Assembly (NCBI GenBank): GCA_947630845.1
Contig: CANRJB010000020.1
Location: 1 to 35,564, forward strand
DNA length: 35,564 bases
Source: an uncultured Clostridia bacterium
Lineage (GTDB): Bacteria; Bacillota; Clostridia; Oscillospirales; Ruminococcaceae
Direction of reading: 5' to 3'
A program made the translations under genes and the position numbers. Of this stretch, positions 2,656 to 23,570 are shown piece after piece. Positions within the stretch are counted from its first letter, which is position 1; each line of letters begins with the position of its first letter. Below the pieces are notes generated by a model. The model was not told the DNA's origin and ran no database searches. It saw only the letters and a list, made by a program, of their open reading frames with translations.

Positions 2656-3279
2656 ATGAAAGGAAAGAAGATCAAGGGCTTTACACTCACAGAAATGATC
2701 GTTGTGATCGCAATTATCGGTATTCTTGCTGCCATACTTGCGCCGACAATGTCTACCTATTACCGCAAGTCGAGAATTAAGGATGCCAATGCCAATGCCA
2801 AGATGGTGTTCAATGCCGCACAGACTGCTGCACAGACATATATCAGCAGTGAAAGAGTGCTGAAAGATACCGATAAGATTCTCAATAAAACTCTGGTTGT
2901 TTCTTATGATCCTGCAAACGGAGTAAGGTGGAGTAATTCACTGAACGGTGCGTTGGCACCTGTTATAGTAGATTCTGAAGGTAACGCAGCAACAGCATAT
3001 GATAAAGCAGCGAATGATATTGCAAGTGTTGTCAACAGGACAGTGTCTGATGCAGAGGAAGGTTGCTGGACTGTTTATATCAGCAATTACATTGTACAGG
3101 GTTCAGTTGCAGCTGATTCCTTGTCAACCAATCGTGTCGGCTGTTATACTGCCAACAAGTATATGGCATCTGATGCAACAGATAAAACGTATGCAGAATG
3201 GCTGACTGGTGGAGTTGAGGGTGAAGTTGACTCACTTGCAGAAGTCTGCAACATTTATGAGCCATTATCCACAACTTGA
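2656..3279 (+). CDS. Type IV pilin-like prepilin (second of a tandem pair)
   Basis: A 207-aa prepilin with leader MKGKKIKG and the mature start FTLTEMIVVIAIIGILAAIL, again with Glu at position 5. The next stretch (KDANANAKMVFNAAQTAAQTY) resembles the equivalent part of the first pilin, which points to gene duplication, while the C-terminal halves have diverged. GGAGGTG sits 7 bp before the ATG. The product is predicted to be inserted in the membrane, processed by prepilin peptidase and built into a pilus or pseudopilus. It is followed by a terminator, so it forms its own transcription unit. Two pilins with strong separate promoters could be major and minor subunits or alternative fibres; the sequence does not decide. 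Confidence 0.9.
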   Translation: MKGKKIKGFTLTEMIVVIAIIGILAAILAPTMSTYYRKSRIKDANANAKMVFNAAQTAAQTYISSERVLKDTDKILNKTLVVSYDPANGVRWSNSLNGALAPVIVDSEGNAATAYDKAANDIASVVNRTVSDAEEGCWTVYISNYIVQGSVAADSLSTNRVGCYTANKYMASDATDKTYAEWLTGGVEGEVDSLAEVCNIYEPLSTT

Positions 3280-5274: not shown

Positions 5275-6000
5275 ATGAACGAAACTCTCATCATTGGCAG
5301 GAACCCCGTCCGGGAGTACCTGCGAAGCGGTCAGCCGGTGGATACGTTATATTTCAGTGCCGGGAGCGGCGGTCTTGGTGAGATCATCCGCCTTGCAAAA
5401 GAAAGCGGTGCTGTCGTCAAGACTGTCAGCGATCAGAAACTCTCACAGCTTGCAGAGGGCGGCGTGCATCAGGGCGTGGTACTCATCGGTGGGTGTACTG
5501 CCTATGCCACGCTTGACGACCTGCTTGCAGTGTCGGCACAGAAGGGGACAAAGCCCTTTCTCATTCTCTGTGATGAGATCGAGGATCCCCATAATCTTGG
5601 TGCCATCATCCGGACGGCAGAAACTGCCGGTGCGGACGGTGTCATCATCCCGAAACGCCGCAGTGCTGCTCTGACCGCAGTCGTCCACAAGACCTCCGCA
5701 GGTGCTGCAAGCTATGTGCCCGTCGCAAGAGTCCCCAACCTTGCTGCTGCCATTGACCGGCTGAAAAAAGAGGGCATCTGGGTCTATGGTACGGATATGG
5801 ACGGGACACTGTATACCGAAACCGGATTTGATGGTGCTGTGGCACTGGTCATCGGTTCAGAGGGTCGGGGGATCAGCCGACTGGTAAAGGAAAAATGCGA
5901 TTTTTTGGTAAAGCTGCCGATGTATGGGAAGATCACCTCACTGAATGCAGCTGTAGCAGCCGGTATTTTTATGTACGAAGTGGTAAGACAGAGAGGATGA
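5275..6000 (+). CDS. rlmB: 23S rRNA (guanosine-2'-O-)-methyltransferase RlmB, TrmH/SpoU family
   Basis: A 241-aa SPOUT-class enzyme expected to use S-adenosylmethionine to methylate the ribose 2'-OH of a guanosine in 23S rRNA (G2251 in E. coli). The N-terminal substrate-binding domain starts IIGRNPVREYLRSG. The catalytic domain carries all three SpoU motifs: HNLGAIIRTAETAGADG (from N107), IGSEGRGIS (from G194) and ITSLNAAVAAGI (N224). Length is typical. AAGGGTGA precedes the ATG. It is the first gene of a likely operon with the degenerate P-type ATPase gene 12 bp downstream. A paralogous TrmH-family role on another rRNA or tRNA site cannot be excluded from sequence alone. Confidence 0.9.
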   Translation: MNETLIIGRNPVREYLRSGQPVDTLYFSAGSGGLGEIIRLAKESGAVVKTVSDQKLSQLAEGGVHQGVVLIGGCTAYATLDDLLAVSAQKGTKPFLILCDEIEDPHNLGAIIRTAETAGADGVIIPKRRSAALTAVVHKTSAGAASYVPVARVPNLAAAIDRLKKEGIWVYGTDMDGTLYTETGFDGAVALVIGSEGRGISRLVKEKCDFLVKLPMYGKITSLNAAVAAGIFMYEVVRQRG

Positions 6001-6012
6001 AGCTACATACCT

Positions 6013-8481
6013 ATGGAGAAACATGATCTGTCACTGGAAGAGATCCTGAATGCATATGCGCCCGAACCGGAGAAGCCTGTGCAGCCGACCGATGCGCAGG
6101 AATTGGGACGTGTGGTGGCACAGGCAGAGGCGGAGGCACTGAAACCGCTGCCGGAGAGTCAGGCAAGGGTCTCCTATGTGCAGGCACAGGACGAGCCGAT
6201 GCCGATGCGTGTCAATGTGCCCTCAAAGAAAAAAACTGCTGAACCGGAGCAGAAGCCGATCGTCTTTGCCGATGATACGCCGAAGATCAGGCGCATGAGC
6301 GATTCTACCCGTGCCCGTGAGATCGCAAAGAACAAAAAGAAAAACCGGCACAGAAAACCCTTGAAGCTGGCAAAGAACAACAAGGTCGGAAAAGTCGAAA
6401 AAACAGAGAAGAAGGCAGCCGAACAGCTTGCTTACCAGAAGGAGCGTCCGGAGGGAGAGTATGCCTATACCCAGATACATGGGGCAAAAAAGGCAAAGAA
6501 CCGGAAAAAGGTCAAGCGTGACCCCGTTCTGAATGCAGCCGGTACGGAGACGATCCATCTTGATCTGAAGGATGTTGTGACGGTTGCACAGCTGCCGCAG
6601 CCCGAACTGCTTGAACCGGTGGAGGTCAAGCCTGCGCCGAGAGCCGAAAAGACCAGCATTGATCTGAGTGAAAAGAAAAAAGCCGAGCCGGGTGAGCTTG
6701 ATGTGAGCATCAGCCGCTCCAAGGAGGAAGCCGAAGCCGAGAACCGCCGCCGTCAACAGGAAATGTCGAGCAAGATGGAGCTGGAGAATGCCGCTGACAT
6801 CCGCCATGACATTGCAGAGCTGCGCAGTGCGATCAATTTCCGCATCTTTGCGCTGACACTTGTGTTGGTGCTGAGCAGTTATATGGCACTGAGCGATGTG
6901 GTGCATTCCGTATGGCTGGACAATCTGCATCCCATCATGAAGGCAGTGCTTGAGCTGCTGCTTGGACTGGGCGCAGCGGTTGTCTGTCTGCCGGTGCTGA
7001 AGAACGGATTCCGCCGCCTGCTTTCCTTCCATGCGGACACGGACAGCCTTGCAGCAGTTTCCTTAGTAGCCTGTATGGCAGCCTGTATCTATAATCTCAT
7101 TGTCACCATAGCCGGGAAGGAAGAAATTCTGTATTTTCTGCCCTGTGCCATACTGACGCTGCTGCTGCACACACTGGGCAAGCTGCTGATCGTGAACCGG
7201 GAACAGGGCAATCTGCGGCTGGTGACGAAGCGGTTCAATTGCAGCGGACTTTGCATTGTGGAAAATGAGGCGAATGCGGACACATTGACAAGGGGTGTAC
7301 TGGGAGATCTTCCGATTCTTGCCACCCTGCGCCGCACGGATTCTCTGATCGACTTCCGGAAGTACACGTATTCCTCTGATCTTGCCGACCGGTTTTGCCG
7401 GATCGCTGCGCCGTTGGCGACGATCTTTGCGATCGGTGTGTCCGTTGTGATGACTTCACTCCGGGCGGAGGGCGTCGGTTACTGTCTGGAGCTGCTGTCC
7501 ATGTTCACGGCAGCAAGCAGCTGTGCTGCCATCACCTTCGTGGTCAATCTGCCGCTCCTGAAGGCAACACGTCAGATGGTGCGCAATGGTGCGCTGCTGC
7601 TTGGTTACCAGAGCGTGGATGATTTTTATGACACCAATTCTCTGATGGTGGATGCTGCTTCTCTCTTTCCGGAGGGAACGGTCAAGCTGTCGGGTGTGAA
7701 GATGTTCACCAATACCAAGATGGAGGAAGTACTTCTGAATGCAGCAAGCCTGTCCTATCATGCAGGTTCGGTATTCAGCGGACTGTTCACAGAAGTGATG
7801 CAGGGCAGGGAGAAAAAACTGTACCGGGTGGAAAATTATGTCTATGAGGACTCTATGGGACTGTGCGGCTGGATCCATAACCAGAGGGTGCTGCTTGGCA
7901 GCCGGGAGCTGATGGCGGCGCATAACATTGAGGGTCTTCCGTCAGTGACCCGTGAAGAGGAACTGGTGGGTGCAGGGAATGAAGCCGTCTATCTGTCCGT
8001 TTCGGGCAATCTCATGGCATTGTTTCTGGTAGAGCTTCACGCCGGCAGACAGGTAAAATTCTGGGCAAAACAGGCAGTCCGCCATGGCATCTGTCTGATA
8101 CTGCGCAGTGTTGACCCGGTCATCACGATCGCAAGAATCGCATCCCTGTTTGAGATCCCGCAGGAGATGATCAAGATCATACCGCAAAAGCTGCATGCGG
8201 AATATGCGGCAGAGACTTCGCCGGTCGAAAAGATGAGCTCGTCAATGGCAACGACAGGCGGCTTTGGCAGTGTGGCACAGCTCATTGTCGGCGCAAAGGT
8301 ACTGCGCAGTACGGCAATGATCGGCGTTTTTGTACAGGCAGTTTCTCTGTTGCTTGGATTGGGAATTGTACTGCTTGAGGCATTGGTAAATGTCGGCATG
8401 ACACCGGGATGGATGCTGGTGCTACAGTGCATCCTCACAGTCATTACCGTCATGTTCGTCAATATCCGGAAGATCTATTGA
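6013..8481 (+). CDS. Degenerate P-type ATPase-like membrane protein (predicted pseudoenzyme)
   Basis: An 822-aa protein. Residues 1-275 are charged, Lys/Glu-rich and probably disordered. Four hydrophobic helices follow (about 276-392), then two more (about 460-515), a soluble part, and two C-terminal helices (about 770-820). This is the layout of a P1B-type ATPase core. The soluble part still aligns with one: VRNGALLLGYQSVDDFYDTN, then VDAASLFPEGTVKL where DKTGTLT is expected (D547 kept; Lys, Thr and Gly lost), an N-domain-like GLCGWIHNQRVLLGSRELM, RSVDP where TGDN is expected (D701), and no GDGxND motif. The metal-site CPC is replaced by SSCAA. Catalysis by the usual cycle is therefore unlikely; a regulatory or scaffold role is inference. 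It sits between rlmB and an LCP gene on the same strand. Confidence 0.75.
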   Translation: MEKHDLSLEEILNAYAPEPEKPVQPTDAQELGRVVAQAEAEALKPLPESQARVSYVQAQDEPMPMRVNVPSKKKTAEPEQKPIVFADDTPKIRRMSDSTRAREIAKNKKKNRHRKPLKLAKNNKVGKVEKTEKKAAEQLAYQKERPEGEYAYTQIHGAKKAKNRKKVKRDPVLNAAGTETIHLDLKDVVTVAQLPQPELLEPVEVKPAPRAEKTSIDLSEKKKAEPGELDVSISRSKEEAEAENRRRQQEMSSKMELENAADIRHDIAELRSAINFRIFALTLVLVLSSYMALSDVVHSVWLDNLHPIMKAVLELLLGLGAAVVCLPVLKNGFRRLLSFHADTDSLAAVSLVACMAACIYNLIVTIAGKEEILYFLPCAILTLLLHTLGKLLIVNREQGNLRLVTKRFNCSGLCIVENEANADTLTRGVLGDLPILATLRRTDSLIDFRKYTYSSDLADRFCRIAAPLATIFAIGVSVVMTSLRAEGVGYCLELLSMFTAASSCAAITFVVNLPLLKATRQMVRNGALLLGYQSVDDFYDTNSLMVDAASLFPEGTVKLSGVKMFTNTKMEEVLLNAASLSYHAGSVFSGLFTEVMQGREKKLYRVENYVYEDSMGLCGWIHNQRVLLGSRELMAAHNIEGLPSVTREEELVGAGNEAVYLSVSGNLMALFLVELHAGRQVKFWAKQAVRHGICLILRSVDPVITIARIASLFEIPQEMIKIIPQKLHAEYAAETSPVEKMSSSMATTGGFGSVAQLIVGAKVLRSTAMIGVFVQAVSLLLGLGIVLLEALVNVGMTPGWMLVLQCILTVITVMFVNIRKIY

Positions 8482-8565
8482 TGCTGTACCGGGATATCCC
8501 CCACAGCACTGATTTTCCCCAATTTCAGAGATCAACAGGCATGATACCGGGAGGAGATGCATAGC

Positions 8566-9876
8566 ATGGAGGAGAGAGGGCATGGTTCTGATCTGCCGAA
8601 GCCAAGAAGAAAACCAGAACCGCCGCCGGCGGAAACATCACTTCCGCCGCTGCGCCGGGTAGAGAAGGGCAAACCTGTACGGCAGACACGCAAGCCGGAT
8701 GCCGCACCGGTCAGAAAGACCGCTCCCCGGAATCAGTATGCCAGCGATACGGCTGAATTTCCGGCAGTCAGGGACGATGAGGAGCTGCCGATCTATGAGG
8801 ATATGCCCCGCCGTCCTGCACCGCAGCGTCCGAAGGGAACAAAGAAACGTCCGAAAAGGGACACGGAATATACTTCTGCATCCCGTTCCTCCAGACACCG
8901 TCCGAAACGCCGCAGTCTGATTGGCAGGCTGCTCAGAAAGCTTGTCATGCTTGCAGCCGTAGTCTTTGCTCTGTATTCCTTAGTGGCATTGTTACTCATC
9001 AGCAAGCTGGAGCGTGTGCCGAGAAATGTACGTACCGTGACAAGCGGTGCGCTTGACAGAGGATATGTCCGCAGCATCCTGCTCATCGGTACGGATTCCC
9101 GTGACCTGACACAGGAAAGAGGGCGTTCCGATACCATCATGCTCCTGACACTCAATTCTGCGACTGATGAGATCGGCATGAATTCCTTTATGCGGGATGC
9201 CTACGTGGAGATTCCCGGATATGGCGGCGGCAAGCTGAATGCAGCCTATTCCTACGGCGGCGCAGAGCTGCTGATGGACACGCTCGAATCCAATTATGGT
9301 GTGAGCGTGGATGATTATATCTGTGTGAGCTTTACGGGCTTTGCAGGGCTGATCGATGCATTCGGGGGAGTGGAGATCACGCTGACGGATGCAGAGGCAC
9401 AGGAGATCAACAATATTCTGCGTAACGAGGTCAACGCACTGATGGGTGCTGACCCGGAGGATGATTTTCTGCCCGGCGGCGGCACGTATGCCCTTGACGG
9501 CAAGCAGGCACTGTCCTATGCACGTATCCGCTATGTCGGCAACGCTGACTTTGAGCGGACATCCCGTCAGAGAGAGGTCATGTCGCAGCTCCTGAACAAT
9601 GCTAAATCGAAGGCAGTCACCGCTGTTCCCGAACTCATGCAGGATGCCCTGCCGCACCTGACGACGAATATGTCCGTTCCGCAGCTTTACCTGCTGTCCT
9701 TACGTGCGCCATTTTTGCTTGGCTACGACATGTCGCAGCAGCAGATTCCGGCAGACGGTACATGGAGTGGTGCGAATATCGGGGGACAGGATGTTCTTCA
9801 GGTAGATTTTCCTGCCAACACACAGATTCTGCATGATACGGTATATTCTTCTACCAAAACGGAGGAGGCACAATGA
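8566..9876 (+). CDS. LytR-CpsA-Psr (LCP) family cell-wall polymer ligase
   Basis: A 436-aa membrane-anchored protein. LCP enzymes move lipid-linked glycopolymers such as teichoic acids or capsule onto peptidoglycan outside the membrane. A basic, Pro-rich cytosolic region (1-120) precedes one helix (LVMLAAVVFALYSLVALLLI), then the LCP domain: ILLIGTDSRD, RSDTIMLLTLN, a Arg-Asp pair in NSFMRDAYVEIPG, KLNAAYSYGG, LIDAFGGVEI, LSYARIRYVGNADFERTSRQ. The usual SIPRDT is SFMRDA here, but the key Arg is kept. The ATG at 8566 is chosen over one at 8557 because GGAGGAG lies 9 bp upstream of it and directly abuts the other. The stop overlaps the next start (ATGA at 9873), showing translational coupling. 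Confidence 0.9.
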   Translation: MEERGHGSDLPKPRRKPEPPPAETSLPPLRRVEKGKPVRQTRKPDAAPVRKTAPRNQYASDTAEFPAVRDDEELPIYEDMPRRPAPQRPKGTKKRPKRDTEYTSASRSSRHRPKRRSLIGRLLRKLVMLAAVVFALYSLVALLLISKLERVPRNVRTVTSGALDRGYVRSILLIGTDSRDLTQERGRSDTIMLLTLNSATDEIGMNSFMRDAYVEIPGYGGGKLNAAYSYGGAELLMDTLESNYGVSVDDYICVSFTGFAGLIDAFGGVEITLTDAEAQEINNILRNEVNALMGADPEDDFLPGGGTYALDGKQALSYARIRYVGNADFERTSRQREVMSQLLNNAKSKAVTAVPELMQDALPHLTTNMSVPQLYLLSLRAPFLLGYDMSQQQIPADGTWSGANIGGQDVLQVDFPANTQILHDTVYSSTKTEEAQ

Positions 9877-10982: not shown

Positions 10983-11921
10983 ATGCAGAAGGATGTGCAG
11001 AACATTCTACAGAGTGTCGGCAAAGTCATTATTGGAAAGGACGAAACCGTTTTACATGCGGTGATCGCTATGCTCTGCGGCGGTCATGTCCTGCTTGAGG
11101 ATGTGCCCGGTGTAGGCAAGACGCAGCTTGCCGCAGCCCTTTCCCGTTCTGTCGGCGGTGTGTTTCACAGGATCCAGCTCACCCCCGACATCATGCCTTC
11201 CGATATCACAGGTTATTCTGTTGTCAACCAGCAGGACGGCTCTCTTGAATACCGTCCCGGTGCGGCGATCTGTAATTTTCTGTTGGCAGATGAGATCAAC
11301 CGTGCAAGTCCGAAGGTGCAGTCAGCATTGCTTGAGATCATGGAGGAACACCAGATCTCCCTTGACGGACAGACGCATGTACTTCCGTCTCCCTTTATGG
11401 TCATCGCTACCCAGAATCCGGTCGAGACTTACGGTACTTACCATCTTCCCGAAGCGCAGATGGACAGATTTTTTATGAAGATCTCTATGGGCTACCCCAC
11501 CTTGCAGGAGGAGCTTGCCATCCTTGACCGAAACGGCGAAAAGAACCCCATTTCCAATATATCCGAACCGGTCATCTCGACCGATGCCGTCATGGCATTG
11601 CAGGAGCAGGTCAATGCCGTGCAAGTCTCAGACAATGTGCGAAATTATATCATCTCCCTTGTCCATGCCACCCGGAACAGTGACCTGAGTACACTCGGTG
11701 TCAGCCCCAGAGGGTCGATCGCCTGCTTCAAGGCAGTGCGTGCATCGGCATTTGTCCACGGCAGAAATTTTGTGACACCCGACGATGTCAAGGCACTTGC
11801 CGTGCCGGTACTCTCCCACAGAATTCTTCTTTCCCCTAAGGGACGCAACACGTTAGGCAGTCCGGAGCAATTCGTGGAGCAGCTTCTGACAACACTGCCT
11901 GTTCCTGATCAGAATGGGTGA
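10983..11921 (+). CDS. MoxR-family AAA+ ATPase
   Basis: A 312-aa cytosolic AAA_3 ATPase of the MoxR type, a chaperone-like group thought to mature or activate partner protein complexes. Walker A is GVGKTQ (G43-T47 core), Walker B is LLADEINR (D103, E104), followed by sensor 1 in VIATQNPVETYGTYHLPEAQMDRF and the C-terminal lid domain with a VSPRGS sensor 2-like motif. AGGAGG lies 10 bp before the ATG. The next genes, DUF58 and transglutaminase-like, form the familiar moxR-DUF58-TGM gene set, so those are its probable partners. The stop overlaps the region giving the next gene its ribosome site. Confidence 0.93.
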   Translation: MQKDVQNILQSVGKVIIGKDETVLHAVIAMLCGGHVLLEDVPGVGKTQLAAALSRSVGGVFHRIQLTPDIMPSDITGYSVVNQQDGSLEYRPGAAICNFLLADEINRASPKVQSALLEIMEEHQISLDGQTHVLPSPFMVIATQNPVETYGTYHLPEAQMDRFFMKISMGYPTLQEELAILDRNGEKNPISNISEPVISTDAVMALQEQVNAVQVSDNVRNYIISLVHATRNSDLSTLGVSPRGSIACFKAVRASAFVHGRNFVTPDDVKALAVPVLSHRILLSPKGRNTLGSPEQFVEQLLTTLPVPDQNG

Positions 11922-11925
11922 GGTT

Positions 11926-13125
11926 ATGAAAAAAAAGACAAAGCTTGCAGTGGTGCTTGACCGCATCAAGCTTGCTATGGCGTTGTTGATGATGGCACTG
12001 ATGGCGTATGTGTTCACATTCTATCTGGACAGTGACATCGGTGTGGTCATCTGTGCTTTTCTGCTTCTTGCACCGCTGATCTCTTTTCTGATCGCATGGT
12101 ATGCGGCAAGTAAGCTTACCGCACGTCTTGAAGCTCCCACCTCTCTCATGAAGGGCAGGCATTTCGTTGCTGATGTGACCATCACCTCAGAAGGCTCGCT
12201 GCCTGTGCCGTTTGTGCGGCTGACGATGGAGCAGGATGCCAATTTTGAACCGGACGATGCCCGGATGATACAGGGGGCAATGACCCCTGCCGAACCCATG
12301 AAGATCCCGATCGGCATGACAGCACGCTATGCCGGAAACGGACTGGTGTCTGTGGGGAAACTGGTGGTTTCAGATTATCTGGGACTGTTCACATTCCGGG
12401 TGAAACATGTGCCAAATGCATTGGCGATTGGCGTGATTCCGGCAATTCCGTCATTGACGGGTGCAGCACAGATGCTCCATGCTGTCAGTGATGTTGTTCT
12501 GACGCAGGATGAAGAGGAGGAGGAATCCGCTGCACTCTACTCCAGTCAGACAATGCCGGGCTATGTCCACCGTGACTATGCGCCGGGTGACAATCTCCGG
12601 CGTATCAATTGGAAGCTTTCGGCGAAGCGCAGAAAGCTCATGGTGCGGATGGATGAGGCGGCAGCGACCGTGCGTCCGGCTGTGATCCTTGACCTGTGTC
12701 CGGAGACGGAGGCAAATGCCCTTCAGCGGCGTGAGACTCTGATGGAGGGTGCGCTTGGTTTTCTGATGCTGCTCGTGCGGCAGGGAATTGTTTGCTCCAT
12801 ACAGTATGCGACGGCAGGCGGATGGAAATGTCTGCCGCTTGAAAATGAAGATGCCGTTCGTTCCGCAGCAGTGGAGCTGGCATCGGCTGATTTCATGGGT
12901 GACGGCAGCCGTGTCGATCCGGCAGTATTGCAGGAGCATGCAGGGGCGTATATGGTCTATTCCTCTAACCCGGACGAAGGGCTGTGCAATGCCCTGAAAC
13001 GTCTGCATGACGTAGGCTATGTCTGTCTGGTCATGCCGGAGCTTGCAGAACCGCCGGAAATTTCCGGACTGGATGCGGTATGGATGCTGTCGGAGGATTT
13101 CACCATGACAGCATTGCAGAAATGA
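11926..13125 (+). CDS. DUF58 domain-containing membrane protein
   Basis: A 399-aa protein with two N-terminal membrane helices (about residues 8-55) and a large soluble domain. The DUF58 signature is clear: YVHRDYAPGDNLRRINWKLS, then KLMVRMDEA. Proteins of this family have a von Willebrand A-like C-terminal fold, here with VILDLCPET as the first strand, though a full metal-ion site is not obvious. I chose ATG 11926 (MKKKTK) because GGTGA ends 4 nt upstream; an ATG at 11914 has no ribosome site. It is encoded between the MoxR ATPase and the transglutaminase-like protein, its usual partners, probably acting at the membrane under MoxR control. The precise function of the family is unknown. Confidence 0.88.
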   Translation: MKKKTKLAVVLDRIKLAMALLMMALMAYVFTFYLDSDIGVVICAFLLLAPLISFLIAWYAASKLTARLEAPTSLMKGRHFVADVTITSEGSLPVPFVRLTMEQDANFEPDDARMIQGAMTPAEPMKIPIGMTARYAGNGLVSVGKLVVSDYLGLFTFRVKHVPNALAIGVIPAIPSLTGAAQMLHAVSDVVLTQDEEEEESAALYSSQTMPGYVHRDYAPGDNLRRINWKLSAKRRKLMVRMDEAAATVRPAVILDLCPETEANALQRRETLMEGALGFLMLLVRQGIVCSIQYATAGGWKCLPLENEDAVRSAAVELASADFMGDGSRVDPAVLQEHAGAYMVYSSNPDEGLCNALKRLHDVGYVCLVMPELAEPPEISGLDAVWMLSEDFTMTALQK

Positions 13126-13135
13126 GGTGACGGAT

Positions 13136-15376
13136 GTGTGGGATAAGCTGAAAGCCGCTGCACAGCATCCGGCGGCACAATTGCTGAAAAAACTCTGCGG
13201 CGACCCGGTACAGCTCTATTCTGTGTTTCTGGTCATGACGAGTATGTACTATTACCATGAGGACTGGACATGGCTGTATACGATCATTACGATCTTTGTC
13301 TCCTTTGTCCTGAACCGGTTTTATGACTTTGTCGCCAGAAGACGATTTCTTGGTCCGATATGCTATCTGATCTTCCTGTTTGCCGGGCTGTACGGAGTCA
13401 ATATGATCACGGCTGTCGGACAGCGTACCTATCCAATCACCTTCATGGTATGGTTTCTGACACCACAGAGCGTTGTGGATTTCTCCATGCTCTACACGAT
13501 CGCCATTTATCTGCTGATGACGGGATTCCTGACAAGCGCAGTGTACTACTTTGCTAAGGTGCGCTACAGAATGGTGATGCAGTTTCTCATCATGCTGATA
13601 CCGCTTTCGCTGTACGCAAAGGAAGGCTTGCAGATGCCGGCGATTCTGGTGATCGTGCTGCTGGCAAGCTATTTCCTGCTGATGGTCTACTGCCGTCAGC
13701 TCAGGGAAGCTCCACAGGTAAGACAGCTCCACAGCTTTCACGGCGGTATTTCGATTGCTGCCTATGTGATGATGTTCAGCATCATTGCTGCCATTGTCCC
13801 GAAGCCGGCAGTGACTGCGGACAGAGAATTTATCGAGAATGCCATGTCCTACAGTACATGGTCGGATGTCCTGATGAACGCCATCCGGATGTTTACTGAA
13901 ACTACCGACAATCAGGTCTCCACTTCCAACAGTGCCATGACACTTTACTATGTCGATGCCCCCGAATCCCTGCGTCTGCGGACGCAGACATATACATACT
14001 ACGGAGAGGACGACAGCTGGACAGTGACGGAATGCGACAGACCCAGCCGCTCCCTTCCGGAATATGAGCTGACCTATAAACCGCAGGCACTGTTGCAGGC
14101 AATTGTGGATACCGCAGCAGAGGATCCGGAATTTGCACAGGAATATGGACTGACGGATGTTGCTGGTAAGACAATGCCGGAACAGAAGGAATATGAGCTG
14201 TATATCTATCCGAGGTACAGAAGCTGGAGGGTGCTGCCCTCCCCCACACGTACCGTTGAACTGACGGACGGTGTGGCACGGAAGGATGTGAGATTGTCAG
14301 ATACCAATGCCTTTGAAGCCACATCGACGGGCACAACGATGCTGTACTACCCGGATGCCTATGCAAGGTACAGTGAAGTTTCGGATATGCTTGACCTGCT
14401 GCACAGGGAAAACTATATAGAGCTGCTCGAAGATGCCTATATCCTTGCAGAGGAGGATGAGAGAAAACAGATCCTGTATGATGCATGGATGGAAGCAAGG
14501 GATGCGGCGGATTATCTGGAGTTGGCTGACGGGAAGGACTGGCAGTCGGAGATCATTGATGACCTTGCCGCACAGCTCACGGAGGGACTGAATTCTGATT
14601 TTGAGAAGGCACTTGCGATCGAGCGGTATTTTGTGGAGGCAGAATATGTCTATGACGATGCCTACCAGAAGGAAGAGGGGGAGAACATCGGGGATTTCCT
14701 GACGACTTCCCACAGGGGCGTGTGCTATGAATACGCCACTGCTATGGTGCTGCTCTGTCGGAGCGCAGGTCTTCCGGCACGGTACGTGCAGGGCTACAAT
14801 ATGTCCGAACAGTATGACAGCAACACCACAAGCCGTTTCAATCCCAATGGCAGAAAGACCAACTATGTCATTAAGGCACGCAATGCCCATGCCTTCCCGG
14901 AGGTCTACATCTCCGGTTACGGATGGCTGAGTTTTGAACCGACTGTTCCGAGTGATGATGTCGGGGACTCTGCTGCGGAGAATATCAAGGTGATGCAGTG
15001 GGGTTATGTGCTGCTTGCTGCGGCAGTGATCGCATTGCTCATTTACCTGCTGCTGCCGTACATCAGAGAGCGGCAGTTCCGCCGCAGGATCAAAACAATG
15101 TCCGCACAGGCGTGCGCATCGGCGGTTTTCCGCAGAATGCGGACACAACTCCGTCTGCCGGACAGTACGACCGTCAGGGAGCTTGCAGTGCAGTCTGCCC
15201 CCTTCTACCAGAGGGATGCGGTCTTTGACGCAATGGATGCACTGCTCTATCAGCCGGAGAATCTGCCGGCAGAACAACAGGAATCGCTTGCCGTAGATTA
15301 TATACAATGGCATGCCGAGAAACGTCTTTACGAAAAAGAACAGAGAAAAAGGAGAAGGTCTGACAGATCCTCTTGA
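13136..15376 (+). CDS. Transglutaminase-like membrane protein (TgpA type)
   Basis: A 746-aa protein. About six membrane helices fill the first 220 residues, an extracellular region follows, then a transglutaminase-like core, one more helix (VLLAAAVIALLIYLLLPYI) and a cytosolic tail of about 100 residues. The core shows the papain-like triad: HRGVCYEYATAMVLLCR (Cys530), NAHAFPEVYISGYGWLSFEP (His585, with an acidic residue in FEP). GTG 13136 is preferred as start because GAGGTGA ends 5 bp upstream; an earlier in-frame GTG at 13127 lacks a ribosome site. It is the third member of the moxR-DUF58-TGM set. The enzymes may be peptidases rather than cross-linkers; the substrate is unknown. Confidence 0.9.
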   Translation: MWDKLKAAAQHPAAQLLKKLCGDPVQLYSVFLVMTSMYYYHEDWTWLYTIITIFVSFVLNRFYDFVARRRFLGPICYLIFLFAGLYGVNMITAVGQRTYPITFMVWFLTPQSVVDFSMLYTIAIYLLMTGFLTSAVYYFAKVRYRMVMQFLIMLIPLSLYAKEGLQMPAILVIVLLASYFLLMVYCRQLREAPQVRQLHSFHGGISIAAYVMMFSIIAAIVPKPAVTADREFIENAMSYSTWSDVLMNAIRMFTETTDNQVSTSNSAMTLYYVDAPESLRLRTQTYTYYGEDDSWTVTECDRPSRSLPEYELTYKPQALLQAIVDTAAEDPEFAQEYGLTDVAGKTMPEQKEYELYIYPRYRSWRVLPSPTRTVELTDGVARKDVRLSDTNAFEATSTGTTMLYYPDAYARYSEVSDMLDLLHRENYIELLEDAYILAEEDERKQILYDAWMEARDAADYLELADGKDWQSEIIDDLAAQLTEGLNSDFEKALAIERYFVEAEYVYDDAYQKEEGENIGDFLTTSHRGVCYEYATAMVLLCRSAGLPARYVQGYNMSEQYDSNTTSRFNPNGRKTNYVIKARNAHAFPEVYISGYGWLSFEPTVPSDDVGDSAAENIKVMQWGYVLLAAAVIALLIYLLLPYIRERQFRRRIKTMSAQACASAVFRRMRTQLRLPDSTTVRELAVQSAPFYQRDAVFDAMDALLYQPENLPAEQQESLAVDYIQWHAEKRLYEKEQRKRRRSDRSS

Positions 15377-17645: not shown

Positions 17646-19691
17646 TCAATCATTTGCCGCAATGGAGGCAATCACTTCGGACAGAAGATTCGCCGGCAGC
17701 GGCTCATACCGCAGGAATTCAAGCGTAAAGCTGCCCAGTCCCCTCGTCACCTGCCGCAGATACATTGCAAAGTCATGCATCTCACGGGCAGGGACTTCTG
17801 CCGTGATGGTGGTTTCTCCTTTGGCAGTCGGCTCCATGCCGAGTACTCTGCCACGCCGCTTGTTCAGTTCGCCCATGATATCGCCCGTATTTTCATCCGG
17901 AGCAGTGACATTGAGTGTGCTGATGGGTTCGAGCATAACCGGGTCAGCCGCACGCATCCCCTCCTTATAAGCAATGGACGCAGCCATCTTGAATGCCATT
18001 TCGGAAGAATCCACCGGATGATATGACCCATCAAGCAGGATCGCCTTCAAGCCAACCACCGGACAGCCTGCCAGTACGCCCTTTCTGACGGATTCCTGCA
18101 AGCCTTTTTCCACAGCCGGGAAGTAATTTTTCGGCACAGAACCACCGAATACCTTCTCCTCAAAAATCAGCTCATCACTTACGCACGGCTCAAATGCGAT
18201 CTTGACATGACCGTACTGTCCATGACCGCCGGACTGTTTCTTGTGCTTGCCTTCTGCTTCGACTTTCTTGCGGATGGTTTCACGGTAAGCGATCTGCGGC
18301 ACAGCAAGTTTCACCTCTGCGCCGAATTTAGATGCCAGCTTAGCCACAGCGATCTCCAGATGCACTTCACCAAGACCGCTCAGAATCATTTCCTTTGTGG
18401 ATGCATCCTGTACATAGGACAGAGTGGGATCTTCTTCCACAAGTCGCTGCATTCCGGCAGAGATCTTGCTTTCGTCGCCCTGTTTCTTAGCATACACTGC
18501 CATTGAATAGCATGCATGCGGAAATGCCGGCATGGGGGCAGCCTTGACATTGCCCGGCGCACAGAGCGTATCGCCCGTGAGAGCGCCGATCTTGACTGCC
18601 GCTACGATGTCACCAGCTTCAGCAGTTTTGACTTCGGTCTGCTTCTTGCCAAGCATGGTATAGAGCTTACCGATTTTTTCCTCTGCGCCGGTTCTGGAAT
18701 TGACCGCAGCGGTATCGGCAGAGAGCTTGCCGGAAAGGACTTTGATATAGGACGTTTTACCCACAAACGGGTCAGCCACTGTCTTGTACACCAGTGCGGC
18801 AAGCGGAGCATCCGTATCACAAGGAAAGTCTGTTTCCACCTCATTGGCAGCCGGAACGAGCAGTCCGAATTCCTTGAGCAGCATGTCAATACCTGCCAGT
18901 GTGGTAGCAGACGTGCAGATGACCGGAGAGATCAGTCCCTTGTTCATGCCGTTGTGAATGCCGTCGATCAGCTCTTTCTGGGTGAAGGATTCGCCCTCAA
19001 AGAATTTTTCCATCAGCGCATCATCTGTTTCCGCTACAGCCTCTGTGATGGCAGCGACCAGTCCTTCAAGACGGTATTCCTTTTCTGTCGTCACCTCATC
19101 AGGCATAGAAATCTCCACAGCCTTACCGTTCTTATCATAGGCATACGCCTTCATTTCGATAAGATTGACATAAGAGGAGATCTCGCCGTTAGTAATGACC
19201 GGCACAACGACCGGGCATACTGTCGGACCGAACACAGTTTTCAGTTCTGTGAGGACATTATAGAAATTGGCATCCTTGTCGTCAATTTTGGTAATGGCAA
19301 ACATGGTAGATTTTCCCATTACCTTTGCAGCGTCATATGCTTTTCGTGTGCCGACACGAATGCCGGATTTGGCAGATACGGTGATCAGGACAGTATCACT
19401 TGCGGCGATGCCGGAGAGCTGCTCACCTGCAAAGTCCAGAATGCCCGGTGTATCGAGCAGATTGATCCAGTTCTGCTCATAGGCAAAGCCAGCGAGTGCA
19501 GTAGAGAGAGAGCCTTGACGCTTGATCTCTTCCGGGTCATAGTCGCAGACGGTGGTACCGTCAGCAGTTTTTCCGAGCCGGTCGGATGCCCCTGCCCTGT
19601 AAAGCAGAGCTTCTGCGAGAGAAGTCTTACCGGAGCTGTGATGTCCGGCAAGTGCGATGTTTCTGATGTTTCCTGCATGGAATTGGTTCAT
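17646..19691 (-). CDS. EF-G-like translational GTPase (not the canonical FusA)
   Basis: A 681-aa protein with the EF-G domain order. G motifs: G1 is GHHSSGKT (16-23) rather than GHVDHGKT, G3 is LLDTPGILDFAGEQ rather than DTPGHVDF, and G4 is TKID instead of NKxD. The later segments include RETIRKKVEAEGKHKKQSGG(H), which matches domain IV of EF-G, and the domain V ending RREGRVLGM-like stretch (KRRGRVLGMEPTAKGE). These replacements match the EF-G-like/EF-G-2 branch found next to, and in addition to, the true translocase. Its role is unclear in most species. The ATG at 19691 has AAGGAG 10 bp upstream; an upstream in-frame start would overlap the promoter. It is a single-gene unit with its own promoter and terminator. 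Confidence 0.85.
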   Translation of the reverse strand: MNQFHAGNIRNIALAGHHSSGKTSLAEALLYRAGASDRLGKTADGTTVCDYDPEEIKRQGSLSTALAGFAYEQNWINLLDTPGILDFAGEQLSGIAASDTVLITVSAKSGIRVGTRKAYDAAKVMGKSTMFAITKIDDKDANFYNVLTELKTVFGPTVCPVVVPVITNGEISSYVNLIEMKAYAYDKNGKAVEISMPDEVTTEKEYRLEGLVAAITEAVAETDDALMEKFFEGESFTQKELIDGIHNGMNKGLISPVICTSATTLAGIDMLLKEFGLLVPAANEVETDFPCDTDAPLAALVYKTVADPFVGKTSYIKVLSGKLSADTAAVNSRTGAEEKIGKLYTMLGKKQTEVKTAEAGDIVAAVKIGALTGDTLCAPGNVKAAPMPAFPHACYSMAVYAKKQGDESKISAGMQRLVEEDPTLSYVQDASTKEMILSGLGEVHLEIAVAKLASKFGAEVKLAVPQIAYRETIRKKVEAEGKHKKQSGGHGQYGHVKIAFEPCVSDELIFEEKVFGGSVPKNYFPAVEKGLQESVRKGVLAGCPVVGLKAILLDGSYHPVDSSEMAFKMAASIAYKEGMRAADPVMLEPISTLNVTAPDENTGDIMGELNKRRGRVLGMEPTAKGETTITAEVPAREMHDFAMYLRQVTRGLGSFTLEFLRYEPLPANLLSEVIASIAAND

Positions 19692-19740
19692 AGCTGTTAC
19701 GCTCCTTTTCTTCGTATGATTCACGCAATACGATAGTTTT

Positions 19741-19769
19741 ATTATACCATCTATGAACAAATATTGCAA
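19741..19769 (-). promoter_or_regulatory. Sigma-A-type promoter of the EF-G-like gene
   Basis: On the minus strand there is TTGCAA (19764-19769), a 17-bp spacer and TATAAT (19741-19746) with TGG before it, about 50 bp upstream of the ATG. Confidence 0.85.
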
Positions 19770-21476: not shown

Positions 21477-23570
21477 ATGAAGAAAAGCATCAGAAAAACA
21501 CTTTCCGCTGCCGTTGCCGCTGCGATGTGTGCCGGGCTTGCAGGGGCAATGCCGGCAGCACCGGTATCGGCTGCGAACGGAATGGGGACGTATGAGGTGG
21601 AAACCTTCGAGGGAGTCGATCAGGTCTGGACTTCCATCTATGAGAATCAGCTCCCCGGCTACTACGGCGATGGATTCGCCTACCTGACAGCAGCTCCGAT
21701 CAGCATTGAGATCGAAGCTGAAAAAGAGGGTATGTACGAAATTGATGTGCGTGCAGCGCAGATCCTCAGCACTGAGGGCAGAATGCAGACCATCTCCATC
21801 AATGGTATCGACTACACCTACAATATGCCCTATCTTTCCGAATGGACAGATGTCAACTTCGGTGTATTCCGTCTCAAAGAGGGTGTGAATGAGATCACCC
21901 TCAAGCCGAATTATGGTTATGCCGCATATGACACCATGACCATCAAGGAAGCTGATTTCCCGTCACTGGACATCGCTTCCGATGAGACATGCGACCCCGA
22001 TGCCACCCCGGAAGCTAAGGCACTGCTCAAATACCTGAAATCCGTCTATGGCAAGAACATCCTCTCCGGTCAGCAGGAGATCTACGGCGGTGGTCACGGT
22101 ATGCAGTCCACCATCCGCTATGATGCTGCAACGGATACCTGTGTCGATCAGGATGGCAACGTTTATACCTTCAATGAAGAGGACAAGGGTACTCTGGAGG
22201 ATACCGGAGAGACGGTTGTCTGGTCGTGCTACGGTGCGGACGGACAGAAGTATAACTATGACCAGCAGAGTCATGGCTATACTTACAATGACTACAACAC
22301 AGAGTGCCGCTATCTCTATGAGCTGACCGGCGATTATCCGGCAATCCGTGGCTTTGACTTCAACTGCCACAACCCCGGCTTTGCATGGGAGGACGGCGTG
22401 ACCGAGCGCATGATCGACTGGGCTGTCAATAAGAACGGCATTGTCACTGCAAGCTGGCATTGCACTGTGCCGACATCTATGGATGATTTTGAAATTGATG
22501 AAGACGGCAACATCACTAAAATTTCCAATGACTGGCAGAAATTCACCTATACCCAGATGACTGATTTTCACACTGCCAACTGCATGGTCGAGGGTACAAA
22601 GGAATATGTGTTCTATCAAGAAGCCATCAAGCTTGTTGCCGCAGAATTGCAGAAATTGCAGGATGCCGGCGTGCCGGTCATCTTCCGTCCGCTGCATGAG
22701 GCAGAGGGAAATCCCGGCAACAACGCCGACGGCAGCGGTGCATGGTTCTGGTGGTCAAAGGAGGGCGCAGAGGTCTATAATCAGCTCTGGAAACTGCTCT
22801 ATACCACGCTGACGGAAGAATATGGCATCCATAACCTGATCTGGGAGCAGAACCTGTATGCATGGTCGGAGGAATCTGCACTGTGGTATACGGGCGATGA
22901 GTGGGTGGACATCGTTGGATTTGATAAGTACAACACCCAGTATAACCGCCATGACGGCAAGACAGAAGGTCCGAATGAGGACGCTGAAAGCAAGATCTAT
23001 TGGTCGCTCGTAGACTATGTCAAGGGCGGAAAGATGGTCTCCATGCCGGAAAACAGCACCATTCCGAGTCTGGAAAATCTTCAGATCGAGCATGCAAACT
23101 GGCTGTATTTCTGCACATGGTATGATGATCAGGACAAGTTCATTTCCGGCGAGAATTACCAGAATGCTGATACCGTGAAGGAAATGTTCCAAAGTGACTA
23201 CTGCATCACGCTTTCCGAGCTGCCGGAGGATTTGTATTCTTATGACGGCGATATCACCACGCCCACGGAGGTTACGCCTACAGAGGACACACCCACAGAG
23301 GTCACACCTACAGAGACAGATGCACCCGATCCCACAGATGCTTCCGTCCCGGATGACGTACTCTATGGCGATGCGGATGGAAATGGTTCTGTGCAGATGG
23401 TGGATATGATTCTGGTGAACAAGTACCTGATGATCGGTACAGAGATCTCACCGCAGGGTCTGCGCAATGCCGATGTGAATCTGAATGGTGAAGTTGAAGC
23501 CGATGACGGACTGAACATTCTGCGCTATGTCATTGATCTGATAACACTGCCTGTTACTACAGCAGAATAA
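21477..23570 (+). CDS. Cellulosomal mannanase: CBM35-like, GH26, dockerin I
   Basis: A 697-aa secreted enzyme: signal peptide (1-32, APVSAA), a CBM35-like carbohydrate-binding module (about 36-160, opening YEVETFEGV), a GH26 catalytic domain (about 175-590), a Thr/Pro linker and a type I dockerin (about 629-690). GH26 is mostly beta-1,4-mannanase with a retaining two-Glu mechanism. The acid/base is Glu408 in FRPLHEAEG, and the likely nucleophile is Glu525 in SMPENS. The dockerin has two calcium loops, DADGNGSVQMVD and DVNLNGEVEADD, so the enzyme should bind a scaffoldin cohesin in a cellulosome. GGGAGG precedes the ATG. It is probably co-transcribed with the dockerin peptidase-like gene 57 bp downstream. 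A minor alternative is another GH26 activity. Confidence 0.92.
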   Translation: MKKSIRKTLSAAVAAAMCAGLAGAMPAAPVSAANGMGTYEVETFEGVDQVWTSIYENQLPGYYGDGFAYLTAAPISIEIEAEKEGMYEIDVRAAQILSTEGRMQTISINGIDYTYNMPYLSEWTDVNFGVFRLKEGVNEITLKPNYGYAAYDTMTIKEADFPSLDIASDETCDPDATPEAKALLKYLKSVYGKNILSGQQEIYGGGHGMQSTIRYDAATDTCVDQDGNVYTFNEEDKGTLEDTGETVVWSCYGADGQKYNYDQQSHGYTYNDYNTECRYLYELTGDYPAIRGFDFNCHNPGFAWEDGVTERMIDWAVNKNGIVTASWHCTVPTSMDDFEIDEDGNITKISNDWQKFTYTQMTDFHTANCMVEGTKEYVFYQEAIKLVAAELQKLQDAGVPVIFRPLHEAEGNPGNNADGSGAWFWWSKEGAEVYNQLWKLLYTTLTEEYGIHNLIWEQNLYAWSEESALWYTGDEWVDIVGFDKYNTQYNRHDGKTEGPNEDAESKIYWSLVDYVKGGKMVSMPENSTIPSLENLQIEHANWLYFCTWYDDQDKFISGENYQNADTVKEMFQSDYCITLSELPEDLYSYDGDITTPTEVTPTEDTPTEVTPTETDAPDPTDASVPDDVLYGDADGNGSVQMVDMILVNKYLMIGTEISPQGLRNADVNLNGEVEADDGLNILRYVIDLITLPVTTAE

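Follow-up and report, generated by a model that had tools for sequence, protein, structure and literature searches.

The stretch of DNA analysed here (35,564 nucleotides, hereafter the window) carries a gene for a protein that is derived from P1B-type ATPases and has lost the catalytic motifs of the pump; it is called the pseudoenzyme below. Its open reading frame begins with ATG and contains no internal stop, which confirms the intact frame of the original prediction. The gene lies between rlmB and a gene for an LCP-family protein. The features of the locus are listed in Table 1, together with related genes beside rlmB in other bacteria.

Table 1. Coordinates of the features discussed. Positions refer to the window unless a locus (L) is named.
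Feature	Position	Strand	Basis or remark
rlmB, 23S rRNA G2251 2'-O-methyltransferase, conserved upstream neighbour	5275..6000	+	TIGR00186 E 5e-73
P1B-ATPase-derived pseudoenzyme gene, 822 aa	6013..8481	+	frame, alignments, structure model
N-terminal tail, residues 1-262, mostly disordered in full-length model	6013..6798	+	
conserved helix motif S7-L-E-E-I-L-N-A-Y15	6031..6057	+	alignment A3; distant families
second tail motif KIRRMSDSTRAREI (close relatives)	6283..6324	+	
third tail motif PEGEYAY (close relatives)	6448..6468	+	
four N-terminal membrane helices (P1B layout)	6820..7197	+	alignment, helix prediction, model
shrunken A-like domain, TGE absent, lowest median dN/dS in protein	7198..7380	+	alignment, dN/dS
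membrane helices 5-6; CPC replaced by S503-C504-A505	7381..7572	+	alignment
replaced phosphorylation motif D547-AASLFPE-G555 (canonical DKTGTLTEG)	7651..7677	+	alignments
N (nucleotide-binding-type) domain; G616, G629 kept	7675..8040	+	
replaced TGDN motif S699-V-D701-P-V-I-T705	8107..8127	+	alignments
GDGxND deletion in P domain, approximate place	8218..8241	+	alignments
two C-terminal membrane helices	8263..8466	+	alignment, model
LCP-family glycopolymer transferase, Ruminococcus-level neighbour, outside order-wide unit	8557..9876	+	
f39 intact CopA	L231:3351-5567, L232:4047-6263, L233:2915-5173	+	directly downstream of rlmB
f40 degenerate P2-type ATPase	L235:322-2958, L234:827-3202	+	directly upstream of rlmB

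Elsewhere in the window, two prepilin-like genes with N-terminal methylation motifs (PF07963) are found at 2005-2511 and 2656-3279 (+). After the LCP gene and a TPM-domain gene, genes for MoxR-type AAA, DUF58, and transglutaminase-domain proteins stand in a row (10983-15376, +). A GH26 glycoside hydrolase with a type I dockerin is encoded at 21477-23570 (+); this dockerin implies that the organism may build cellulosome-like complexes.

P1B ancestry and loss of the catalytic motifs

Sequence searches match the pseudoenzyme to P1B ATPases. With phmmer, the protein was aligned to the copper ATPase of PDB 3rfu (E 4.4e-10), with VDAAS opposite DKTGT and SVDP opposite TGDS. Profile-profile comparison, a check proposed with the original prediction, aligned residues 200-822 to 19 canonical P1B ATPases with E 1.3e-37. 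As a single sequence, the protein matched TIGR01525 (E 2.4e-9) and CopA (E 4.8e-8) in NCBIfam, far below the curated cut-offs (36.6 vs 346 bits). The Pfam search of the window protein returned a single insignificant match to an unrelated family, and none of 22 members of the pseudoenzyme family matched P-type Pfam families at E <=0.01. Up to 14 of these 22 matched CopA at E <=0.001, a count for which cut-offs are given for the window protein alone. In the tree, 42 family rows and the 19 canonical P1B rows occupy the two sides of a single branch with support of 100/99.

Alignment, helix prediction, and structure modelling agree on a P-type fold in the eight-helix P1B layout, with an N domain, a reduced A domain, and a truncated P domain. 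The modelled N domain is no more than 2.5 A from that of CopA over 116 residues. Structural comparison with CopA agrees with the alignments in that the P1B fold is kept in the model. The family is derived from a P1B (CopA-type) ATPase, of which the eight-helix membrane body and the N domain remain, together with a smaller A domain and a portion of the P domain.

Motif columns were inspected in 88 close (Ruminococcus-level) and 41 distant members, the latter including congeners such as four of f7 and four of f13, and in the 19 canonical ATPases. The Lys of DKTGT is present in 19/19 canonical sequences and in none of the 41 distant or 88 close members; the window reads DAASL. The position of the phosphorylated Asp (547) is Asp in 11/41 distant and 63/88 close members. 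Downstream of it, position 552 is F or Y in 38/41 distant members and position 553 is Pro in 35/41, and both are invariant in the 88 close members in these terms. At the TGD motif, the Gly position (700) is never Gly, either in the 41 distant members (displayed block, one gap) or in the 88 close ones. The following Asp (701) is kept in 39/41 distant and 87/88 close members, and of the two distant misses, one (L118) comes from a truncated frame that has a gap at this position. Position 703 is Asn in 34/41 distant members and Val in the window. A segment of ~33 residues that carries GDGxND is deleted from the window protein; all 41 distant members have a gap there (the truncated frame of L118 among them), while the motif is found in 19/19 canonical sequences.

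The original prediction had listed the replacement of DKTGTLT by DAASLFPEG, of TGDN by SVDP, the absence of GDGxND, and the loss of the CPC metal site, and all four are borne out by the alignments. Its statement that only D547 and D701 remain is correct for the window protein, but the counts above show that D547 does not hold across the family. Further losses are added here. The A domain is reduced to ~60 residues, and its TGE motif, present in 19/19 canonical sequences, is found neither in the window nor in any of the 41 distant members; the only match to TGE[SAP], in L132, lies within the N domain. In the sixth membrane helix, CPC is replaced by SCA in the window, which lacks the Pro too. 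The Pro is kept in 33/41 distant members, and a flanking Cys in only 3/41.

The N domain retains G616 (40/41 distant, 88/88 close) and G629 (41/41 and 88/88), so that ligand binding is possible. Position 614, where GxG begins, holds Gly in only 12/41 distant members, and in the displayed block neither the window nor any of the 41 has the His of the canonical HP motif. A DKTGT flag in L112 proved false, arising from DKTGS within its disordered tail. No homologue with intact motifs was seen within the pseudoenzyme family. Judged from these alignments, the catalytic loss is old, and new conserved motifs are in place. Because TGE, the CPC cysteines, DKTGT, TGD (except its Asp), and GDGxND are lost, the protein should not pass through a phosphorylation cycle, by the established mechanism of P-type ATPases.

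The long charged N-terminal tail of the original prediction is also confirmed; it comprises residues 1-262, contains no Cys, and has acidic ends and a basic middle (net charge +18 at residues 86-172). The full-length structure model has a pLDDT of 74.3, with most of residues 16-187 below 50. In 39 distant members, the tail has a median length of 275 residues (range 104-653), and its charge is negative in 32 and positive in seven, as in the window. This lack of charge conservation argues against a general rRNA-binding tail.

Near the start of the tail, many members have a motif similar to S-L-E-D-I-L-x-E-Y/F. Among 43 full-length close sequences of alignment A3, which were selected for carrying this helix motif, L8 is conserved in 41, I11 and L12 in all 43, and Y/F15 in 42. 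The hydrophobic residues stand at i, i+3, i+4, and i+7, the spacing of an amphipathic helix. A strict pattern for the motif occurs in 16 of 42 distinct sequences (0.075 expected from shuffled tails) and a relaxed one in 22 (0.115 expected), leaving 20 without it; the patterns were written after the sequences had been viewed, the window and several congeners are among the 42, and the expectations ignore relatedness and the post hoc choice of pattern. The model leaves the tail disordered except for short helices; these include two, both with low confidence, at residues 8-14 and at residues 99-112, where the second tail motif KIRRMSDSTRAREI lies. This second motif was found in 89/139 family ORFs and in 0/2900 other ORFs of the fetched loci. 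When the tail was used as the query against its own genome, only itself was matched at E <=10, and the idea that the tail is shared with other proteins of this genome was rejected. A DNA pattern of the helix motif matched this gene alone in the genome; the reversed control pattern also gave one match.

Distribution, selection, and pairing with rlmB

The family was surveyed in the order of the window's family, which we take to be Oscillospirales (GTDB); named Ruminococcus members are placed in Oscillospiraceae by NCBI. Among 297 draft genomes of this order, each at least 90% complete, a family match (profile A1, E <=1e-45) was observed in 290, representing 144 of 146 genera, and 288 of the 290 have exactly one. 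The class sample comprised 243 genomes, of which the 12 from the order scored 317-796 bits. Matches were also obtained in 221 of the 231 non-order genomes, with a best score of 127.7 bits, and those listed are to ordinary P1B ATPases, only within their N/P region. In a phylum sample, 3/249 genomes matched at E <=1e-45, all three from the window's order; for 226 of the non-matching genomes, the listing leaves out the relationship to the window. Within these samples, the family is confined to the order, where it is nearly universal.

The median dN/dS (omega) of the whole protein is 0.064 over 25 disjoint close pairs (NG86; the first 25 of 30 pairs, some of them near saturation). By region, with fewer pairs in some, the median is lowest in the A-like domain (0.027) and P/N (0.035), and higher in the three membrane regions (0.072-0.083) and the tail (0.088). 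Constraint is strongest in the cytosolic head, which fits a surface for interaction or ligand binding better than a membrane pathway. The same motif losses in the 88 close and 41 distant relatives, the presence in 290/297 genomes, the purifying selection, and the kept P1B fold give good support to the original proposal of a maintained pseudoenzyme with a non-pumping role. The family probably serves an important role other than pumping, because the gene is kept in nearly all of the order's genomes surveyed despite the loss of the ATP and metal sites.

A few irregular members were observed. The frames at G319:C4:55932-57542 and G385:C36:6876-8492 are open over just 544 and 547 codons; in both genomes the family member is on a contig other than that of rlmB, and rlmB lies close to the end of its contig. 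A single TGA, which may reflect an error, decay, or recoding, interrupts the orthologue in L111 (G058); rlmB is 1110 nt from the 3' piece of this broken gene.

The most constant neighbour is rlmB. It lies within 600 nt upstream on the same strand in 109/115 Ruminococcus-level loci, which include duplicate fetches and early-ending contigs, and in 21/23 loci of distant families. At L130 (G037), there is no rlmB at the locus, and it is present on another contig. Among the matches listed, from which positions were collected by eye for 84 of the 297 genomes, rlmB is followed by the pseudoenzyme gene in 81, the exceptions being G319, G385, and G037.

At E <=1e-30, rlmB was found in 291 of the 297 genomes. 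Both counts refer to the same 297 genomes, as judged by genome handles. In the raw table, 289 genomes have both genes, one has the family gene only (G367), two have rlmB only, and five have neither (Fisher p 6.7e-9, which overstates the link, since neighbouring genes share assembly gaps). In G300, one of the two rlmB-only genomes, the gene after rlmB is a frame that carries the tail motif and is cut off where the contig stops (weak match, 10 bits). The other, G565, has a divergent family frame of 941 residues (124 bits). As both carry the gene, all 291 rlmB-positive genomes appear to keep it. The five genomes with neither rlmB (1e-30) nor the family gene (1e-45), namely G326, G347, G358, G381, and G479, are 95-100% complete, and two are from one genus; assembly gaps may explain them. 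Over 26 loci, the distances of RlmB and of the family protein are moderately correlated, with a Pearson coefficient of 0.50 (0/1000 permutations as high) but a Spearman coefficient of only 0.17.

The genes on the other side are less constant. An LCP gene is within 600 nt in 99/115 Ruminococcus-level loci and in 0/23 distant-family loci, where the downstream genes vary. In five of these 23, an EF-G-like gene directly follows the pseudoenzyme gene. A homologue of these followers, an EF-G-like GTPase, is encoded in the window at 17646-19769 (-).

Proposed role and competing explanations

The best explanation for these observations is that the P1B-derived, order-wide pseudoenzyme acts as a membrane-anchored docking platform, a role that we infer and regard as reasonably probable. 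The cytosolic head would provide a fixed surface, and the short amphipathic helix of the disordered tail (SLEDILxEY), seen in many members, would recruit a partner. The process served would be ribosome maturation or translation at the membrane, over wall synthesis; the pairing with rlmB suggests the former, and this adjacency may also be an old operon without shared function.

The most serious rival to the docking platform is a ligand sensor, in which the N domain would still bind a nucleotide or other metabolite, and the membrane body would relay the bound state to a tail-bound partner. The similarity of the modelled N domain to that of CopA would fit such a sensor, as do the two kept glycines and the low dN/dS of the P/N and A-like regions, but the missing HP His and the rarity of Gly at 614 speak against it, and we consider it rather unlikely. 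Less likely still is ATP-independent transport, with the P1B membrane body serving as a channel or carrier. The eight-helix layout and the CPC Pro of most distant members are consistent with transport, yet a Cys seldom stands beside this Pro, the window lacks the Pro, and constraint is weaker in the membrane regions than in the cytosolic ones. HAD phosphatases carry DxD, which the loop x-D-x-[DE]-h-[FY]-P of most other families resembles, and an enzyme with a rebuilt active site could be imagined. Position 548 is Asp in 28/41 and position 550 Asp or Glu in 35/41 distant members, and Asp 701 is nearly constant. Among the close relatives, however, position 548 is Ala in 72/88 and never Asp, and the Mg2+-binding GDGxND segment is missing in all aligned members, which makes a rebuilt enzyme highly improbable.

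The original prediction had proposed a scaffold or sensor of the adjacent wall-synthesis genes. The frequent LCP neighbour in Ruminococcus-level loci would suit a scaffold acting with the LCP ligase, but LCP proximity is confined to that level among the loci examined, and the downstream genes vary in distant families, where rlmB is mostly retained. The wall-synthesis partner was rejected, with very little probability left to it. The least probable reading is a decaying pseudogene or a recent mutation of an active pump. The motifs are absent in this genome, and one relative (G058) has an internal TGA; the frames are open in the other listed relatives, omega is low, and distant members share the same losses. 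With the gene kept across the order under purifying selection, this reading was rejected as well.

Pseudoenzymes are well known among kinases and proteases. A bacterial pseudoenzyme family of P-type ATPases was not found among the papers listed in the literature searches. The available passages of the P-type ATPase review PMC10654040 mention no inactive bacterial families. A gene that is near-universal in the sampled order, present almost always once per genome at the threshold applied, and under strong purifying selection points to an important function in the order, which includes Ruminococcus of the rumen and gut, and the family is a test case for the uses of the pump fold without pumping.

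P-type ATPase genes beside rlmB outside the order and comparison with CopA

The surroundings of rlmB, ~5 kb on each side (some cut by contig ends), were inspected in 57 non-order genomes, with P-type queries that included proteins from three of the examined loci, found earlier by other queries. A P-type-ATPase-like gene was present near rlmB in five genomes and absent in 52. Each of the five genes directly adjoins rlmB on the same strand. Such genes make up 5/112 adjacent genes vs 0/379 further genes (p 0.0006), although the five cases are not independent because they are drawn from three families.

In the family f39, which belongs to the same class as the order (G074 and G104, with G128 outside the 57), the neighbour is an intact CopA. 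In f43 (G131, L293), rlmB is preceded on its strand by an intact P2-type ATPase gene at a distance of 218 nt. In f40 (G075 and G105), L235 has GKTGI for DKTGT (in G075) and TYDN for TGDN, and L235 and L234 both lack GDGxND. The L235 gene matches PF00122 and PF00689, while that of L234 has weak NCBIfam matches to Ca and Mg ATPases. From their sequences, the f40 genes are apparently a second lineage of pseudo-P-type proteins. As in the pseudoenzyme, they are P-type-derived, lack catalytic motifs, and are immediate neighbours of rlmB; in contrast, they are P2-like, lie upstream of rlmB, and are found in two genomes only.

The recurrence of P-type genes by rlmB is the strongest hint of a functional link with rlmB. 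Non-pumping descendants of P-type ATPases might have been recruited more than once as an rlmB partner, from P1B ATPases in the order and from P2 ATPases in f40, and might link ribosome maturation or the methylation of 23S rRNA to the membrane. We put this proposal forward only tentatively, as it is less likely to be right than wrong. If true, this coupling would be a use of the P-type fold undescribed in the searched literature. The intact and degenerate P-type genes by rlmB elsewhere make the link between RlmB and the membrane directly testable.

The closest known system is the P1B copper ATPases (CopA; PDB 3rfu and 7r0g; TIGR01525 and TIGR01511). The f39 CopA occupies the same place and strand beside rlmB as the pseudoenzyme and belongs to the CopA family, but all of its motifs are intact. 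An intact rlmB-copA pair is a possible ancestral state; in the RlmB tree, which is poorly resolved, f39 is not beside the order. CopA has TGE, CPC, DKTGT, TGD, and GDGxND, whereas the pseudoenzyme retains only the Asp of TGD. The metal-binding N-terminal domain of CopA contrasts with the disordered tail of the pseudoenzyme, whose A domain is shrunken.
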